A stretch of DNA of 10,316 bases, from NCBI GenBank assembly GCA_030670605.1, contig DAOVBK010000031.1, positions 1-10,316 of the forward strand. The letters run 5' to 3'. This stretch comes from Candidatus Stahliibacteriota bacterium (lineage in GTDB: Bacteria; Hydrothermota; Tepidihabitantia; SM23-42). Shown here piece by piece: positions 4,423 through 9,359 of this stretch. The notes under the pieces are model-generated. The model saw only the letters and a list, made by a program, of their open reading frames with translations. It was not told where the DNA came from and did no database searches. The number at the start of each line of letters is the position of its first letter. Within the stretch, counting starts at the first letter, position 1. The translations under genes were made by a program, and so were the position numbers.

Positions 4423-4488
4423 CTGATAACCTGATACGCTGATTATCTATCATGCATCACGCATCCTGCATCCCGTATCTCGTATCAC
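4423..4488. repeat. Abutting 8-mer and 7-mer degenerate tandem arrays
   Basis: Three 8-mers, CTGATAAC, CTGATACG and CTGATTAT (4423-4446), run directly into heptads: CTATCAT, GCATCAC, GCATCCT, GCATCCC, GTATCTC, GTATCAC (4447-4488), consensus roughly GYATCNC. There are no unique spacers, so this is not a CRISPR array. The array ends 15 nt before the -35 box of the next promoter. Confidence 0.65.
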
Positions 4489-4503
4489 GAGTACGCTGCT
4501 CTA

Positions 4504-4531
4504 TTGACACCGTAGCAAAGATTCCTATAAT
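4504..4531 (+). promoter_or_regulatory. Consensus promoter of the DUF2007 gene, apparently leaderless
   Basis: TTGACA (4504-4509) and TATAAT (4526-4531) are both perfect consensus hexamers separated by 16 nt. The ATG at 4537 begins only 5 nt after the -10 box. Transcription would be expected to start at or within a base or two of the start codon, leaving no room for a ribosome-binding site. No Shine-Dalgarno sequence is present. Confidence 0.85.
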
Positions 4532-4536
4532 TTCTC

Positions 4537-4761
4537 ATGCTGAAACGTGTCTATAAAGCACCAGATGAATTCACTGCAATAACCCTGCGGGAAATGCTCA
4601 AAAGTCAGAACATCGATGCAATCATCAAAGCGTACGAGACAAGCTGGCTCGATGGTCTTCCTAAAATGATGAAAGGAGGATGGGGAGACGTCTTAGTAAG
4701 AGAAGAAGATGAAAAAGAAGCAAAAGAATGCATCGACGAGTTTCTGCAGAATACTGCATAG
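4537..4761 (+). CDS. Small DUF2007-type protein
   Basis: This 74-residue protein looks like the DUF2007 (putative signal-transducing) family. It has an N-terminal MLKRVYKAPDEFTAITLREML strand-helix unit, then a LKSQNIDAII strand. It ends in the typical GGWGDVLVREEDEKEAKECI segment (47-66) with a short final helix. The fold is a small ferredoxin-like alpha/beta domain of unknown biochemical role, sometimes fused to or near membrane and peptidase genes. The start at 4537 is fixed by the promoter 5 nt upstream and the absence of any other in-frame ATG nearby. The gene stands alone on its transcript. Its stop codon directly abuts the terminal repeat of the mobile element at 4762, so insertion just missed the coding region or trimmed its natural 3' end. 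Confidence 0.75.
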   Translation: MLKRVYKAPDEFTAITLREMLKSQNIDAIIKAYETSWLDGLPKMMKGGWGDVLVREEDEKEAKECIDEFLQNTA

Positions 4762-4911
4762 TGGGGTCAAATCTCTACTTTGAACATTCACTTACAATAA
4801 ACCTCTTTGTCCTTTGATACTTGTCCGCAATAGATAAAACCTCGATTATTCCACATGTGCATGCGTCCTCTACAATGCATCTCTTGGAGAAAACTGATGT
4901 TCAAAGTAGAG

Positions 4912-5080
4912 GGCGTGTTGCTCAAATCCCTTTTTGTCATTGCGAACCCCGACCATTAAGAATTGTAATGGTAGGGGTGTGGCAATCTCATTATATTTCA
5001 TGAGATTACTTCGTCGCTACGCTTCTCGTAATGACATTTTAGAATTCCACATGCCTGAATTCGATTTGGGCAACACGCCC
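4912..5080. mobile_element. Inner miniature element with TAGAG target duplication
   Basis: GGCGTGTTGCTCAAATC (4912-4928) and GATTTGGGCAACACGCC (5063-5079) are inverted repeats with a single mismatch. The element is flanked by TAGAG at 4907-4911 and again at 5081-5085, the expected footprint of a target-site duplication. Boundaries are ambiguous by one base, because GGGCG/CGCCC ends with a 4-bp TAGA duplication fit equally well. At about 169 bp it cannot encode a transposase and must have been moved in trans. The inner ends lead into a further palindromic repeat at 4936-5035. Confidence 0.75.
4936..5035. repeat. Palindromic GTCATTGCGA-type intergenic repeat
   Basis: GTCATTGCGA (4936-4945) and TCGTAATGAC (5026-5035) are inverted repeats (9 of 10). 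Inside are two more hairpins. One is ACCCCGACCATT/AATGGTAGGGGT (4946-4957 with 4967-4978, one mismatch). The other is AATCTCAT/ATGAGATT (4984-4991 with 5000-5007). The string GTCATTGCGA, then GGCAATCTCA, then TGAGATTACTTCGTCGCT resembles a palindromic repeat motif seen in many unrelated bacterial genomes (recollection). The whole RNA could fold into a cruciform and might limit read-through between the DUF2007 gene and the next operon. Confidence 0.65.
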
Positions 5081-5105
5081 TAGAGATTTGACCCCATGCA
5101 ATTTG

Positions 5106-5133
5106 TTGACATTCCATAGCGTGTCGCTATAAT
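5106..5133 (+). promoter_or_regulatory. Consensus promoter of the lipoprotein/ABC-importer gene run, apparently leaderless
   Basis: TTGACA (5106-5111) and TATAAT (5128-5133) are both perfect, with a 16-nt spacer. Two ATGs follow at 5136 and 5139; the second is exactly 5 nt from the -10 box, as in the promoter at 4504. There is no Shine-Dalgarno sequence. The -35 box begins 10 nt after the end of the mobile element. No cobalamin riboswitch fits between promoter and start. Confidence 0.83.
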
Positions 5134-5135
5134 AG

Positions 5136-6080
5136 ATGATGAGGTATCTACTCTGCGTACTACTTATTATCCCCCTGCTCTTGAACTGCCCGAAGAAATA
5201 CACACCGAAGGTCGATAAGATCCAAGTCTACTATCTCGGCTCGCTTTACGAGGATATATACCGTGAACCACCTCTCTTATCAGGAACACCGGCAATGAAG
5301 GGTATTGTCATCGGACATCTTGAAACAGAACCTCCCATCCTTAGATACATCCTCGGTAAACTCGGCTTTTTCGCACTGCTCGATGAGTTTCCTATTGACT
5401 ATGTCATGAGCGACACGCTCGTCTACAACGTCCATTACCTCTCAATACCAAGAGACCTCGGGTACGGAATCAAAAACTACGAAGGCATACGCTTTGCCAT
5501 CGCGCGCAGAGGTTCTGACAGCCTCACAATCAATGATGAAGTACAGCTCACCCTCATAAAACAACGCAGTGATATCTTGTGGCTTATTGACAACGATTTC
5601 ATTAAAACTACGCCGCGAAGGATCGACTTTTATGTTGAAAACCGCCAACTGGCAGATACAAGTATTGCCGCACTTGAGGTCGAACCAGATACTGTATTAA
5701 TGAACAAGGTCGCAGCGTTCCGAAACCGCCTCGACACGCTCCTCAGTACAACGTTCATCCTTGCCGGCGAGGACCTCAGTGAATTCATACTGTCAACCAT
5801 TGCCGAACGAGTAGATGTCAACGTGATTGCCTATCCACCAAGTATGGTCGTTGTGCAACCGCAGTCAGATACAGTAACGCTTTTCGAAACGATCAATAGC
5901 ATTGATTGGACAGTACGAATGCAAAAGGTTACAGACATGGCAAACAAAGACGTATCACAGCTTGTGGATGAAAGTGGCTACACACTGTGGGGACGTGTGC
6001 AGAAAACGAATACGTGCCTTGTTCCGGATGTCCAGGGGAAAAATCTTTTTGATTTATTCTATCCCCTTGAGGGAGAGTAG
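5136..6080 (+). CDS. Unrecognised lipoprotein
   Basis: This 314-residue protein starts with a short lipoprotein-type signal: basic MMR, hydrophobic YLLCVLLIIPLLL, then N-C at residues 17-18. The lipobox LLNC is atypical because of Asn before the cysteine, but the charged KKYTPK just after it fits a lipidated N-terminus. The remainder (DKIQVYYLGSLYEDIY onward) is a soluble alpha/beta-looking domain with no motif I recognise. It contains many Asp/Thr-rich turns and a C-terminal stretch, YTLWGRVQKTNTCLVPDVQG. Translation may begin at ATG 5136 or, judging from promoter spacing, at ATG 5139. It is first in a same-strand run leading into a membrane protein and an ABC importer, which suggests an envelope role but does not define one. 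Confidence 0.7.
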   Translation: MMRYLLCVLLIIPLLLNCPKKYTPKVDKIQVYYLGSLYEDIYREPPLLSGTPAMKGIVIGHLETEPPILRYILGKLGFFALLDEFPIDYVMSDTLVYNVHYLSIPRDLGYGIKNYEGIRFAIARRGSDSLTINDEVQLTLIKQRSDILWLIDNDFIKTTPRRIDFYVENRQLADTSIAALEVEPDTVLMNKVAAFRNRLDTLLSTTFILAGEDLSEFILSTIAERVDVNVIAYPPSMVVVQPQSDTVTLFETINSIDWTVRMQKVTDMANKDVSQLVDESGYTLWGRVQKTNTCLVPDVQGKNLFDLFYPLEGE

Positions 6081-6734
6081 GTGACGCGCATGCGTGTGCA
6101 CTGGCGAAGACTGATTTGGGTCATTTTCATCTGTGCGTACAGTGCGCTTTTCTTCTACAATCTATTGAACCCCTTTTCCAACTGGCACATACCATACGTA
6201 TACACACTGGTGCTCATTATCTGGCTTTGTTTCGAATACTATGAGAAACGGTTGTTTTTTCAAACGGGCTTTGCACCGCTCCCTGCATATAGCTGGCCTC
6301 TCCGAGCGGCTTTTGCGCTCTTTTTCTATTCATCCTTGGTCATTGGTATTTCGACAATCGTGTGGTGGCACAGCAATCAAATACCATTGTATCCCGTTGT
6401 ACACGTATTTGGATTCATCGCACTCATTGCCTCAGTCATACTCAGAAGACGGATGTTGCATAACAAAAACGTCACCAGGAAAACGATTTCACAGTTCTAT
6501 GTAGGTATTCTTCTGTTAATCGCTTCGCTTGCGCTTGGCTACGGTTCGCTGCTTCTTGTTGCGTATGTGCTCGTGATCGGATGTCCACTCGTGCTGCTCA
6601 TGAGACACCATGAGTACACACTACTTGCGACAGTAGAGGCGTTTGCCCAAACACACAAGAAGAAGAACCGTGAAGAGCTATGGCAGTTCTATATTGAAAA
6701 GCAGCAGAAAAAGACAAAAAGGAAACGAAAGTAG
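6081..6734 (+). CDS. Six-helix integral membrane protein, possibly ICMT-like fold
   Basis: This 217-residue protein has about six membrane segments (roughly 11-29, 36-53, 72-95, 104-122, 138-154, 157-174) and a very basic, cytoplasmic-looking tail ending KKTKRKRK. The layout of the last third, ISQFYVGILLLIASLALGYG followed by a helix and RHHEYTLLATVEAF, loosely recalls isoprenylcysteine carboxyl methyltransferase-type membrane enzymes. There RHPxYxG precedes a helical hairpin and an EE-x2-L-x3-F segment. The His-Pro of that motif is missing, so this is a weak structural suggestion only. The start is GTG at 6081, right after the upstream stop, with GGGAG-like bases upstream; ATG at 6090 is an alternative. 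Being contiguous with the lipoprotein gene implies co-translation. Confidence 0.65.
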   Translation: MTRMRVHWRRLIWVIFICAYSALFFYNLLNPFSNWHIPYVYTLVLIIWLCFEYYEKRLFFQTGFAPLPAYSWPLRAAFALFFYSSLVIGISTIVWWHSNQIPLYPVVHVFGFIALIASVILRRRMLHNKNVTRKTISQFYVGILLLIASLALGYGSLLLVAYVLVIGCPLVLLMRHHEYTLLATVEAFAQTHKKKNREELWQFYIEKQQKKTKRKRK

Positions 6735-6786
6735 TATCTTTTTCTGTTTTTCAATTTCTCGTACCGTCATCTCACGCTTTCTCACT

Positions 6787-7656
6787 ATGAAGGATATGTT
6801 TCACCATACCATCAGTGATAGCAGACGGACACACGGAGTACAGAAGCATAAAAAGTACACAAAGCTATTCCCATACATATTCTTGTCTGTTATTTTTCTG
6901 CTCGCGTGCGAACGCACCACGCACTCCGAGGGTATGCGCGTCGTATCGCTCTCACCAGCAATGACAGAGATTATCTTCGCGCTCCATGCAGAAGATGCCC
7001 TCGTCGGCGTAACAACATTCTGCGATTTTCCTGAACGCGCGCAGCAAAAGAGCACGGTCGGTGATTTTTCGAATCCGTCAATCGAAAGAATTATCGCGCT
7101 TAAGCCGAGCCTCGTCATCATTAATCTTCCGGAACAGTCGAGAATACAGAAGCAACTCGAACAACTCAACATACCGGTTTTTACTTCCTCACCGACATCG
7201 CTGCGTGTTCTATACACAGAAGTCACTGAATTTGGACGATTGCTGAACAGACATGCTGAGGCAGAATCACTTGTCCGTTACATGCAGACGAACATACGAC
7301 CGCACACGACAGGAGCGGCAACCATGGTATACATAGAGCTCTCACCACGTCCACTCGTCACGATCGGCGGACAGAGCTATCTCAATGAAATGCTCGAGAT
7401 GGCAGGTGGCATGAATATTTTTTCGGATCTCGCGAAACCGTATCCGGTTGTTGGTCAGGAAGCGATCATAAAACGAAACCCGGAGATCATCATCGTGTTA
7501 CACCCGGGACGCATCGCTGATCGATTGGGATGGCAGCGCATCACCGCCGTCAGGAACAATAGAATCTATACTGACCTCGATGAAGACCTGCTCATGAGAC
7601 CAGGTCCCCGTCTCGTTGACGGGTTTCGCGCACTTGTGAAGTGTATCCATGAATAA
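6787..7656 (+). CDS. btuF: BtuF-like substrate-binding lipoprotein of an ABC importer
   Basis: This 289-residue protein has a lipobox, FLLAC (Cys41), after a hydrophobic core (27-40). The mature region starts with the helical-backbone (TroA/BtuF) signature RVVSLSPAMTEIIFAL (51-66), then LVGVTTFCDFP and VGDFSNPSIERIIALKPSLVI. The C-terminal lobe contains GGQSYLNEMLEMAGG and NPEIIIVLHPG, as in cobalamin and siderophore binders. It would capture a corrinoid or iron-chelate ligand outside the inner membrane and deliver it to the permease. The exact ligand is uncertain. It overlaps the permease gene by 8 nt. No ribosome-binding site precedes the ATG at 6787; the ATG at 6796 is an alternative start. 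The N-terminal region before the hydrophobic core is unusually long (about 26 residues). Confidence 0.86.
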   Translation: MKDMFHHTISDSRRTHGVQKHKKYTKLFPYIFLSVIFLLACERTTHSEGMRVVSLSPAMTEIIFALHAEDALVGVTTFCDFPERAQQKSTVGDFSNPSIERIIALKPSLVIINLPEQSRIQKQLEQLNIPVFTSSPTSLRVLYTEVTEFGRLLNRHAEAESLVRYMQTNIRPHTTGAATMVYIELSPRPLVTIGGQSYLNEMLEMAGGMNIFSDLAKPYPVVGQEAIIKRNPEIIIVLHPGRIADRLGWQRITAVRNNRIYTDLDEDLLMRPGPRLVDGFRALVKCIHE

Positions 7657-8554
7657 GTTCATACCTATTATTATCGTCTTTATCATTGCAATTGTGATCG
7701 GTATTTTTGTCGGACCAGCAGCACCGAGCGCGGAAATAATGCAATTACGTCTGTCCCGCGTGATCCTCGGTATCTGTGCTGGCGGCATACTGGGCTTCTG
7801 TGGCGCAATCCTACAGGGTCTTTTTGGCAATCCGCTTGTTGAACCGTACACCCTCGGTTCAGCATCTGGTGCTGCGCTTGGCGGTTCTATTGGGATTCTT
7901 CTATTCGGTACGATTAGCCCGGTCTTTGCTTTTGTTGGTGCACTCGGTGTCGGGCTTTTTGTCTATACCATTGCCCGCCGCAAAGGAGGGTTTTTGCGGG
8001 ACCGGCTGATCCTCGCGGGTGTCGTTATGAGTTTCTTGTGTTCATCACTGGTCATGATCGTCATGGTCATGGGTGGACGCGAGCTCTATGAAATCCTCTA
8101 CCTTTTAATGGGGTATCTTGGCATTATCATTAATGCGACAAATCGCTTTCTTGTCATCTTTCTCATCGTTATGTCGCTTATACTCGTCGTCTATTTGTAC
8201 CGGTACTACAGAGAACTCGACATTATCTCTCAAGGATTAGAAACCGCGACCGGACTCGGCATTGATGTCCAGAAAATCTCCATCATTATTTTCTTCACGA
8301 CCTCGCTCATCATTGGGCTGACCGTATCTGTCGTCGGTGCCATCGGTTTTGTTGGACTCGTCATTCCACATATTGCACGGCTCCTGTTCGGACCACGACA
8401 TATATACAACTTGCCTGCTTCCTTCATTCTCGGGGCAACATTCCTGCTCCTCGCTGATACGCTAGCACGTACGATAACCGTCTATGAGCTGCCCGTCGGT
8501 GTTGTCACATCATTGATCGGCGTACCGTTTTTCATTTATATCTACCGAAAGTAG
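7649..8554 (+). CDS. btuC: FecCD/BtuC-family ABC importer permease
   Basis: This 301-residue polytopic permease has the family blocks in order. RLSRVILG is at 34-41, LQGLFGNPLVEPYTLGSASG at 55-74 and the coupling segment GAIGFVGLVIPHIARLLFG at 230-248. LADTLART (268-275) and ELPVGVVTSLIGVPFF (280-295) complete the set. It is slightly shorter than E. coli BtuC (326), with a compact N-terminus. Permeases of this family form a homodimeric channel for vitamin B12, haem or iron-siderophores. The tight overlap with the binding protein and the 1-nt gap to the ATPase show a complete importer operon. Confidence 0.92.
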   Translation: MNKFIPIIIVFIIAIVIGIFVGPAAPSAEIMQLRLSRVILGICAGGILGFCGAILQGLFGNPLVEPYTLGSASGAALGGSIGILLFGTISPVFAFVGALGVGLFVYTIARRKGGFLRDRLILAGVVMSFLCSSLVMIVMVMGGRELYEILYLLMGYLGIIINATNRFLVIFLIVMSLILVVYLYRYYRELDIISQGLETATGLGIDVQKISIIIFFTTSLIIGLTVSVVGAIGFVGLVIPHIARLLFGPRHIYNLPASFILGATFLLLADTLARTITVYELPVGVVTSLIGVPFFIYIYRK

Positions 8555-8555
8555 A

Positions 8556-9359
8556 ATGGTAGTCATCGAAGCACACAACATTCACTTTGCGTACAATGCG
8601 GAAAATGTAATATGCGATGTATCTGTTTCCATCGAGCACAGTGCATTTCTTGCGATCATCGGTCCGAATGGCGCGGGGAAATCAACACTCTTACGAATTC
8701 TCGGCGGCGTACTCAAACCCCAGCACGGTATTGTGTGTATGTTTGGTCAAAGTATCAATGCCGTGGAGAGAAAAACACGCGCCCAGCACATCGCATTCGT
8801 ACCACAGGAGACATACTTTGCATCCGATTTTTCGGTCGAAGAGATCGTCTCCATGGGCCGATATCCATATATCAGCGCGTTTCAACGTGAACAGAGGACC
8901 GACCGAGAAGCAATAGAACATGCGCTCGAATACACAGAGACACTGCAGTTCCGCACACGACAGATTAATTCCCTTTCTTCTGGTGAACGCCAGCGCGTTG
9001 TGCTTGCCCGTGCCTTAGCACAGGAGCCGAAAATACTTCTCCTTGATGAACCAACCAGTCATCTTGACCTCAGACATCAGCATGCCATTATGGAGATGCT
9101 TAAACGGTTGAATACGGAGGGACTCACCGTGATCACCGTGCATCACGATCTGAATCTCGCGGGTCTTTACTGTGAACACCTTCTTCTCATGAATGAAGGA
9201 ACTGTCTATGCGGAAGGAACACCTCAGTCACTTCTCTCCGAATCAGTGCTGCACGATGTGTACAAGACAGACGTAACCGTTGTACAGCACCCGCACAAAA
9301 ACATTCCACAGATTTTCTTACGTCCGAAAGGAGATGACCATGAAAATCATACACCATAA
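8556..9359 (+). CDS. btuD: ABC importer ATPase (BtuD/FepC family)
   Basis: This 267-residue protein has an intact nucleotide-binding domain. Walker A GPNGAGKST is at 36-44, the Q-loop Gln at 84, the signature LSSGERQ at 140-146 and Walker B LLLDEP at 161-166. The D-loop SHLDL is at 168-172 and the switch histidine lies in HHDLN (196-200). The segment MGRYPYISAF (100-109) after the Q-loop is typical of the B12/siderophore-transporter subgroup. All catalytic residues are present, so it should energise import with the permease one base upstream. The last 20 nt overlap the start of the YjbQ gene, whose ribosome-binding site lies within this coding sequence. Confidence 0.93.
   Translation: MVVIEAHNIHFAYNAENVICDVSVSIEHSAFLAIIGPNGAGKSTLLRILGGVLKPQHGIVCMFGQSINAVERKTRAQHIAFVPQETYFASDFSVEEIVSMGRYPYISAFQREQRTDREAIEHALEYTETLQFRTRQINSLSSGERQRVVLARALAQEPKILLLDEPTSHLDLRHQHAIMEMLKRLNTEGLTVITVHHDLNLAGLYCEHLLLMNEGTVYAEGTPQSLLSESVLHDVYKTDVTVVQHPHKNIPQIFLRPKGDDHENHTP
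9327..9333 (+). promoter_or_regulatory. Shine-Dalgarno site deciding the YjbQ start
   Basis: AAAGGAG lies 6 nt before the ATG at 9340 but directly abuts the ATG at 9334, so 9340 is the better start. The site is inside the ATPase gene, consistent with operon translation. Confidence 0.75.

Follow-up and report, generated by a model that had tools for sequence, protein, structure and literature searches.

An IS1182-type miniature element with a preference for TIRYT-type ends in a WOR-3/Stahlbacteria lineage

Introduction

A stretch of 10,316 nucleotides from a Candidatus Stahliibacteriota genome, referred to here in its entirety as the window, contains a long inverted repeat between two genes, one arm of which is split by other DNA. 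The question that this locus raises is whether one mobile element landed within another and, if so, whether it did so by accident. The window lies on contig C19 of the genome (G000; 1.75 Mb, 294 contigs, 79% complete).

Results

The DUF2007 gene of the window (4537..4761, + strand; PF09413 at 28.6 bits, cut-off 25.7) ends in a stop codon that directly abuts what we term the outer element (4762..5096). Beyond this element stands a TTGACA/TATAAT promoter-like site (5106..5133, + strand), recognized by eye and recurring in relatives, which belongs to a downstream gene for a 314-aa protein (5136..6080, + strand). The latter gene is found near DUF2007 in relatives as well, and its product has no Pfam family match. 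Farther along, the binding-protein, permease and ATPase genes at 6643-9359 presumably form an ABC transporter of the cobalamin/iron type. Degenerate short-period text (catcacgcatcctgcatcccgtatctcgtatcacgag) occupies 4440-4510, and text of similar appearance was noted by eye close to the promoter-like site of genome G011.

The locus was compared in 12 relatives that carry both neighboring genes on one stretch, comprising 11 members of the family and one of the order (G032). No outer-type end lies in the gap between DUF2007 and the downstream gene (about 52-514 bp) in 11 of these 12; the single conserved block in relatives, which the original prediction had named as the outcome that would speak against insertion, is thus not what the relatives contain. 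Likewise, no outer-type end is present within 976-1100 bp after DUF2007 in G015, G016, G024 and G026. In G011 (L358) the gap spans 2 kb and holds a different, 91-bp outer-type pair directly after the DUF2007 stop codon; G011 and the window either inherited one old insertion or were hit separately at a hot spot.

The left terminal repeat of the outer element (4762..4787, + strand, 26 bp) consists of TGGGGTCAAATC, TCTA and CTTTGAACAT in that order, and is followed by a 109-bp interior (4788..4896) with no relative in its own genome or in the 100 genomes searched with the window sequence. The right terminal repeat is in two pieces: an inner half ending in TAGA (4897..4910, - strand) and an outer half starting with a second TAGA (5081..5096, - strand), the two TAGA copies (4907..4910 and 5081..5084) forming a target-site duplication. 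Without the insert and one copy of the duplication, the element measures 161 bp. Compared letter by letter, the 26 bases of 4762-4787 are the exact reverse complement of 4897-4911 joined to 5086-5096. The perfect 26-bp inverted repeat predicted on removal of the inner DNA is therefore borne out in every letter, and it is well outside chance expectation. An independent repeat search of the window returned arm pairs matching at 16/16 and 15/15 positions, along with 18/19 for the inner element. The same 26-mer also stands uninterrupted elsewhere in the genome (G000:C240:18182-18207).

Ends of the outer family are of the TGGGGTCA type. Counted as TGGGGTCAAATCTCNANNTTNNACA-type ends with up to two mismatches, relatives of the left terminal repeat number 21 in the genome of the window and are present in all 10 genomes searched, nine of which were chosen since they were already known to contain such an end; the reversed pattern gave 0 matches in each. 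The loci examined hold 42 non-redundant outer-type elements with inverted paired ends: 31 measure 57-611 bp and 11 measure 1033-1070 bp. The count uses a self-set score threshold, takes in some low-scoring pairs, and includes two from a gammaproteobacterial locus (L033) of another phylum. Uninterrupted outer copies, which had been sought as support, thus exist as 42 paired-end relatives, none of them a 161-bp copy. Over 14 columns, the two ends of one element differ by 2.07 mismatches against 4.98 between different elements. Variants of the form GGGGTCAG exist among the paired ends. The motif GGGGTCA occurs in the ends, and its next base is A, not C or G, in all 33 ends of the training set described below, whose selection favored this feature.

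The 11 full-length elements of 1033-1070 bp have paired ends of approximately 26 bp, and in each of them a transposase gene is flanked by these long terminal inverted repeats, not by GTAG REPs. A Y1-type open reading frame (MARPLRIQFPGAFYHVTCRGNERR...) is present in 11/11. All eight proteins submitted to Pfam matched Y1_Tnp (PF01797) at 42-53 bits (cut-off 23); these come from L178, L182, L187-L190, L192 and L138, the last via L191, which is the same element. The Y1 assignment of L129, L131 and L132 is from resemblance and the HFH motif only. The genome of the window contributes two of the 11, one with an open frame (L182) and one with a broken gene (L178). HFH and YxHxN motifs were found in eight of nine sequences searched, the exception being L333. 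Matches to the REP-associated transposase model NF047646 (44-60 bits in 3/3 proteins) are under its cut-off of 80; TIGR00362 matches weakly in 2/3 proteins, and PF08299 weakly (22.1 bits, cut-off 31.5) in one of the eight full-length-element proteins scanned, one of which is an N-terminal piece. A Y1/HUH gene between outer-type ends provides the transposase that the original prediction hoped to find sharing the outer end.

HUH enzymes are expected to leave no target duplication. None of the 42 paired elements is flanked by a 4-9 bp duplication, which fits this expectation; flank repeats of 2 bp and 3 bp occur in 6/42 and 2/42, with shuffled means of 3.5 and 1.1. Overall, the outer family fits the published TIRtron/TIRYT description (PMC3733652, PMC6006769).

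Two side observations concern these ends. At L193 (640-1633), two outer-type ends in the same orientation, approximately 1 kb apart, flank a non-transposase open reading frame (MNSIHFEKAIVKTPGRSLANG...), which we take to resemble dimethylargininase-type enzymes. In a WOR-3 chromosome (L071, L194), the same 26-bp end together with a ribosome-binding-like site stands ahead of a small open reading frame at two places, in partly masked sequence.

The inner element (4911..5080) is an IS1182-type miniature element of 170 bp with ends GGGCGTGTTGC (GGGCG...CGCCC) and terminal repeats GGGCGTGTTGCTCAAATC (4911..4928, + strand) and GGGCGTGTTGCCCAAATC (5063..5080, - strand). In an alignment of 12 complete copies, the borders GGGCG and CGCCC are sharp and the flanks differ. 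An alternative end, TGGGGTCAAATCTCTAGGGCG, suggested by extended window matches and seen in L257, was dropped on account of the differing flanks of the other copies. In the window alone, 170 bp with TAGA is indistinguishable from 169 bp with TAGAG, one G being common to both. Across the 12 complete copies, however, a 4-bp duplication is exact in eight and has at most one mismatch in 11, compared with means of 1.58 and 6.75 for shuffled partners (P 0.00005 and 0.009), and no copy has an exact 3-, 5- or 6-bp duplication with borders at GGGCG/CGCCC. The border of L259 was shifted manually two bases inward (small deletion) for both duplication and target scoring. The unit first described, 4912-5080 with TAGAG, therefore holds in that the duplication is real, and is best read as 4911-5080 with TAGA; the 5-bp form was dropped because 4 bp is exact in 8/12 copies and 5 bp in none. 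Independent inner copies with short duplications, another anticipated line of support, are likewise present, the length being 4 bp.

Copies were collected with three queries: the window sequence, the inner end and the inner body. The complete ones are the window copy, six from G010 (L258, L262, L263, L264, L269, L270), three from G023 (L257, L259, L260) and two from G024 (L261, L266), hence four genomes of one family including G000. A further 11 are single-ended (L265, L267, L268, L271-L274, L276, L326, L333, L340), some of which stop at a contig end. Body-search matches covering CATTGCGA repeats alone were excluded from the counts, as was L235 in G039, which is one of 27 places outside the family and G105 that match the inner-end pattern. 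The 22 of these 27 places that were examined have neither a partner end (0) nor a nearby outer-type end (0) and look like chance matches; a reversed inner-end pattern, used as control, gave 8 matches, all outside the family.

Inside the inner element, a palindromic unit (TGTCATTGCGA...CAATCTCA; 4935..4990, + strand) is followed by a second, inverted one (5001..5036, - strand). TGTCATTGCGA is retained in 12/12 complete copies, and the inverted partner is altered in L266 and L270. Such units occur outside inner elements in G000 as well (L002, L003, L005) and thus constitute a third repeat layer within the second; their TCGCAATGAC motif is also present in the DUF2007 gap of G029, G030 and G031. 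L257 is unusual in that its duplications are mismatched (TCTA/TAGA), and outer halves of the target end lie on both sides of its inner copy (501-670). It could derive from recombination between two inner copies, one in each end of a single outer element, and L262 may be the product of a similar event.

Target sites were scored with a position weight matrix built from the 33 distinct sequences among 57 uninterrupted ends that match TGGGGTCAAATCT with at most one mismatch and carry ACA at columns 23-25. These ends are a selected set from loci other than those tested, partly in the same genomes, and the background of 47,448 positions includes the tested loci. Joined empty sites were scored at a locked position; of the four readings given by two strands and two duplication copies, the best was kept. 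Ten of the 12 joined sites fall in the top 0.011% of background, or up to ~0.05% given the best of four readings; the weak targets are L262 (0.19%) and L264 (0.6%). When 41 offsets were tried on both strands, the best fit lay at the duplication itself (offset 0) in 11/12, L264 being the exception. The duplication occupies columns 13-16 (TNNA) of the outer end. A half-site ranking in the top 0.1% (best of two) is present in 9/11 single-ended copies; the misses are L276 and, by score, L333. The latter copy, from another family of the phylum, adjoins a Y1 transposase gene (PF01797, 38.1 bits), on the far side of which an end of the form AGGGGTCAGGCA-TTGA-CAATTGACAATT places the same TTGA at columns 13-16, as judged by eye.

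The joined sites are diverse. Their end subtypes differ (TCTACTTTGAACAT, TCGAAACTTGACA, TCAACATTCAACAT and others), the duplicated letters vary (TAGA, TCGA, TTGA, TCAA, TTAA, TGAA), and the inner element is found in both orientations relative to the outer end. The inner family has a strong, reproducible preference for columns 13-16 of outer-family ends, and accordingly resides mainly on other mobile elements. Target recognition is probably performed by the transposase. The original prediction of two successive insertions by non-autonomous elements stands, and the two elements are unrelated; beyond it, their nesting is not accidental, and the inner element prefers outer ends.

The target is also a palindrome, albeit an imperfect one. 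The axis of symmetry of the 33 distinct ends lies at columns 14/15: the complementary fraction of flank pairs is 0.66 there and 0.09-0.31 at ten alternative centers. The 4-bp duplication is centered on this dyad. The joined targets have 5.08 of 10 complementary pairs against 2.56 in background, and 0 of 100,000 draws of 12 sites scored as high; this symmetry partly restates their being outer-type ends. When folded as single strands, the window variant and two of four others place the duplicated bases in the loop; two of the five variants fold poorly. Symmetry is low at L269 (2/10) and L262 (3/10), and the sequence of L269 still matches the outer family.

A full-length partner of the inner element was found in G105, which lies outside the family and in the same phylum (WOR-3/Stahlbacteria). 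This 1916-bp insertion sequence has the same ends as the inner element (compared with GGGCGTGTTGCCCAAATC, 18/18 identical at the right end and 16/18 at the left) and is flanked by the duplication TCTT, so that a length of 4 bp is common to both. Its transposase matches NF033551 at 329.7 bits (cut-off 270), together with PF13751 and PF05598; an IS1182 gene sharing the inner end, which had been looked for, is therefore present in the phylum. Its target ranks at 13.5% of background, i.e. outside outer-type ends, which counts against the preference. The search for autonomous partners outside the family yielded this element and one single-ended copy in G147. A search for IS1182 transposases found none in the window's own genome (79% complete), and among 22 genomes of the same family only G016 gave a match, a partial one. 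In a raw scan of 13 IS1182-type loci, seven (including G105:C336) showed an inverted pair with a 4-5 bp repeat. A DUF6788 gene lies within the same ends as the IS1182 transposase of the G105 element (L275, 1613-1978). L295, another IS1182-type insertion sequence in G105, lies between flanks that form a perfect 12-bp inverted repeat around a central 4-bp repeat, CATG; these flanks could equally belong to its own ends.

Several other explanations for the split repeat were weighed. The inner and outer parts could be one composite element that spread as a unit, with the repeated junction reflecting common descent: the junction does recur in several genomes, and window matches extend beyond the inner borders. 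The joined sites nevertheless differ in end subtype, duplicated letters and further flanks, and L260 and L270 (as well as L264, should the scored reading of its weak site be correct) are oriented opposite to the window copy. On these grounds we rejected descent as a composite unit, which is very unlikely. Two independent random insertions, their recurrence stemming from the way in which copies were gathered, are extremely unlikely. The first copies did come from a search with the window sequence, which favors copies beside outer ends; however, the inner end alone, free of outer sequence, retrieves the same copies, the column that holds the duplication is the same in 11/12, and the 22 examined of the 27 extra pattern places lack both a partner end and a neighboring outer-type end. 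That the block is a regulatory hairpin or a conserved gene for a structured RNA, given that long inverted repeats have the capacity to fold, has next to no probability and was rejected on the combined evidence of Rfam and the gap comparison. The window has no Rfam match at gathering score; with E up to 1, the sole match in 4700-5160 is at 4702-4749, within the DUF2007 gene and below gathering score; and the outer-type end is missing from the gap in 11/12 relatives and from ~1 kb after DUF2007 in the four others.

A more serious rival holds that the inner element recognizes any palindrome or hairpin, as IS1272 does, TIRYT ends being merely common palindromes. It would account for the symmetry of the joined targets about the duplication (5.08 against 2.56 of 10) and for the perfect 12-bp inverted flanks of the IS1182-type element at L295, and it has a precedent in IS1272, which targets hairpins without sequence conservation according to PMC5678879 and PMC4923244. 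Yet 10/12 targets share outer-family sequence, and L269 (2/10) and L262 (3/10) are barely symmetric, the former still matching by sequence. We consider this explanation unlikely, though well above the others in standing.

Discussion

We regard as highly probable a two-step nested insertion between the DUF2007 gene and the next promoter-like site, in which the inner family homes to columns 13-16 of outer-family ends. In the first step, a short element with 26-bp RAYT/TIRYT-type inverted ends would have landed directly after the DUF2007 stop codon, mobilized in trans by an HUH single-tyrosine transposase without target duplication. In the second, the 170-bp miniature element, moved in trans by an IS1182-family DDE transposase, would have entered the dyad of the right outer end, duplicating the four central bases TAGA and presumably disabling that end. 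The assignment of transposases, HUH for the outer and IS1182 for the inner element, is a prediction from shared ends and gene content; in particular, mobilization of the inner element by an IS1182 transposase is suggested by the ends of the G105 element.

Both partners resemble known systems, with differences. The outer element is like TIRYT/TIRtron elements (PMC3733652) and TnpA-REP subclass 2.1 (Quentin et al. 2018, PMC6006769): a Y1/HUH gene sits between long inverted repeats, the ends have a GGGG-W-S-A core, and gene-less repeats are scattered in the genome. A DnaA-like helix-turn-helix gives a weak match, under the cut-off, in 1/8 proteins here. Against the published motif GGGGWSAS, the eighth base of the ends here is mostly A; unlike the TIRYT ends described there, those found here are imperfect palindromes that serve as insertion targets. 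The term WOR-3 is absent from PMC6006769.

REPINs of the RAYT system, attributed to Bertels and Rainey in 2011, reportedly have two inverted terminal repeats and are thought to be mobilized in trans by a tyrosine transposase. The outer element is likewise short with two inverted ends, but these are not GTAG-tagged REPs, and several full-length transposase elements with matched ends exist here.

For the inner element, the closest comparison is IS1272 of the IS1182 family, which is reported in PMC5678879 and PMC4923244 to replace a hairpin without duplication or target sequence. An IS1182-family transposase (here in the G105 element) and palindromic targets are common to both systems; here, in contrast to those accounts, 4 bp are duplicated, the hairpin retains both arms and most targets have sequence in common. 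Stem-loop replacement of the IS1272 type is accordingly not what is found, as both target halves are retained alongside the 4-bp duplication. PMC5678879 also draws a loop-duplicating pathway as one possible outcome for IS1272, and it is this alternative that the inner element would seem, by analogy, to follow. Insertion sequences selective for repeated palindromes have been reported: in Tobes and Pareja 2006 (PMC1525189), IS3, IS110, IS4, IS256 and IS5 family sequences are highly selective for REPs, whereas the target here is a mobile-element end and the inserted unit a miniature element. IS1182 has 0 occurrences in PMC1525189. Insertion at a fixed position in a repeated palindrome is seen for the inner copies and not for the single full-length G105 element. 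An IS1111-type recombinase insertion sequence is said to specialize on the ends of Tn21-family transposons; both cases involve specialization on the ends of another mobile family, here by an IS1182-type element on the ends of tyrosine-transposase elements. Our searches of an open-access library brought up no paper on IS1182-type elements in TIRYT ends and none combining WOR-3, insertion sequence and transposase. Both halves of the behavior have precedents, in IS1182 elements drawn to palindromes and in insertion sequences that go for REPs or transposon ends; their combination looks new.

Together, these results give a clear case, from a candidate phylum that has been little studied, of one mobile family landing on the ends of another. 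RAYT/TIRYT systems in this lineage take the form of full elements with matched ends. They join two loosely linked observations, palindrome-seeking by IS1182 elements and the seeking of REPs or transposon ends by insertion sequences. More tentatively, and as a possibility rather than an expectation, the IS1182-type lineage may have specialized in parasitizing tyrosine-transposase elements. Its transposase would read the terminal dyad, perhaps in the form of an extruded hairpin with a 4-nt loop that is cut and duplicated, and the splitting of those ends would silence the mobility of the elements. The approximately 20 natural sites, which vary in both sequence and symmetry, make the question of sequence or hairpin a testable one for a DDE transposase.
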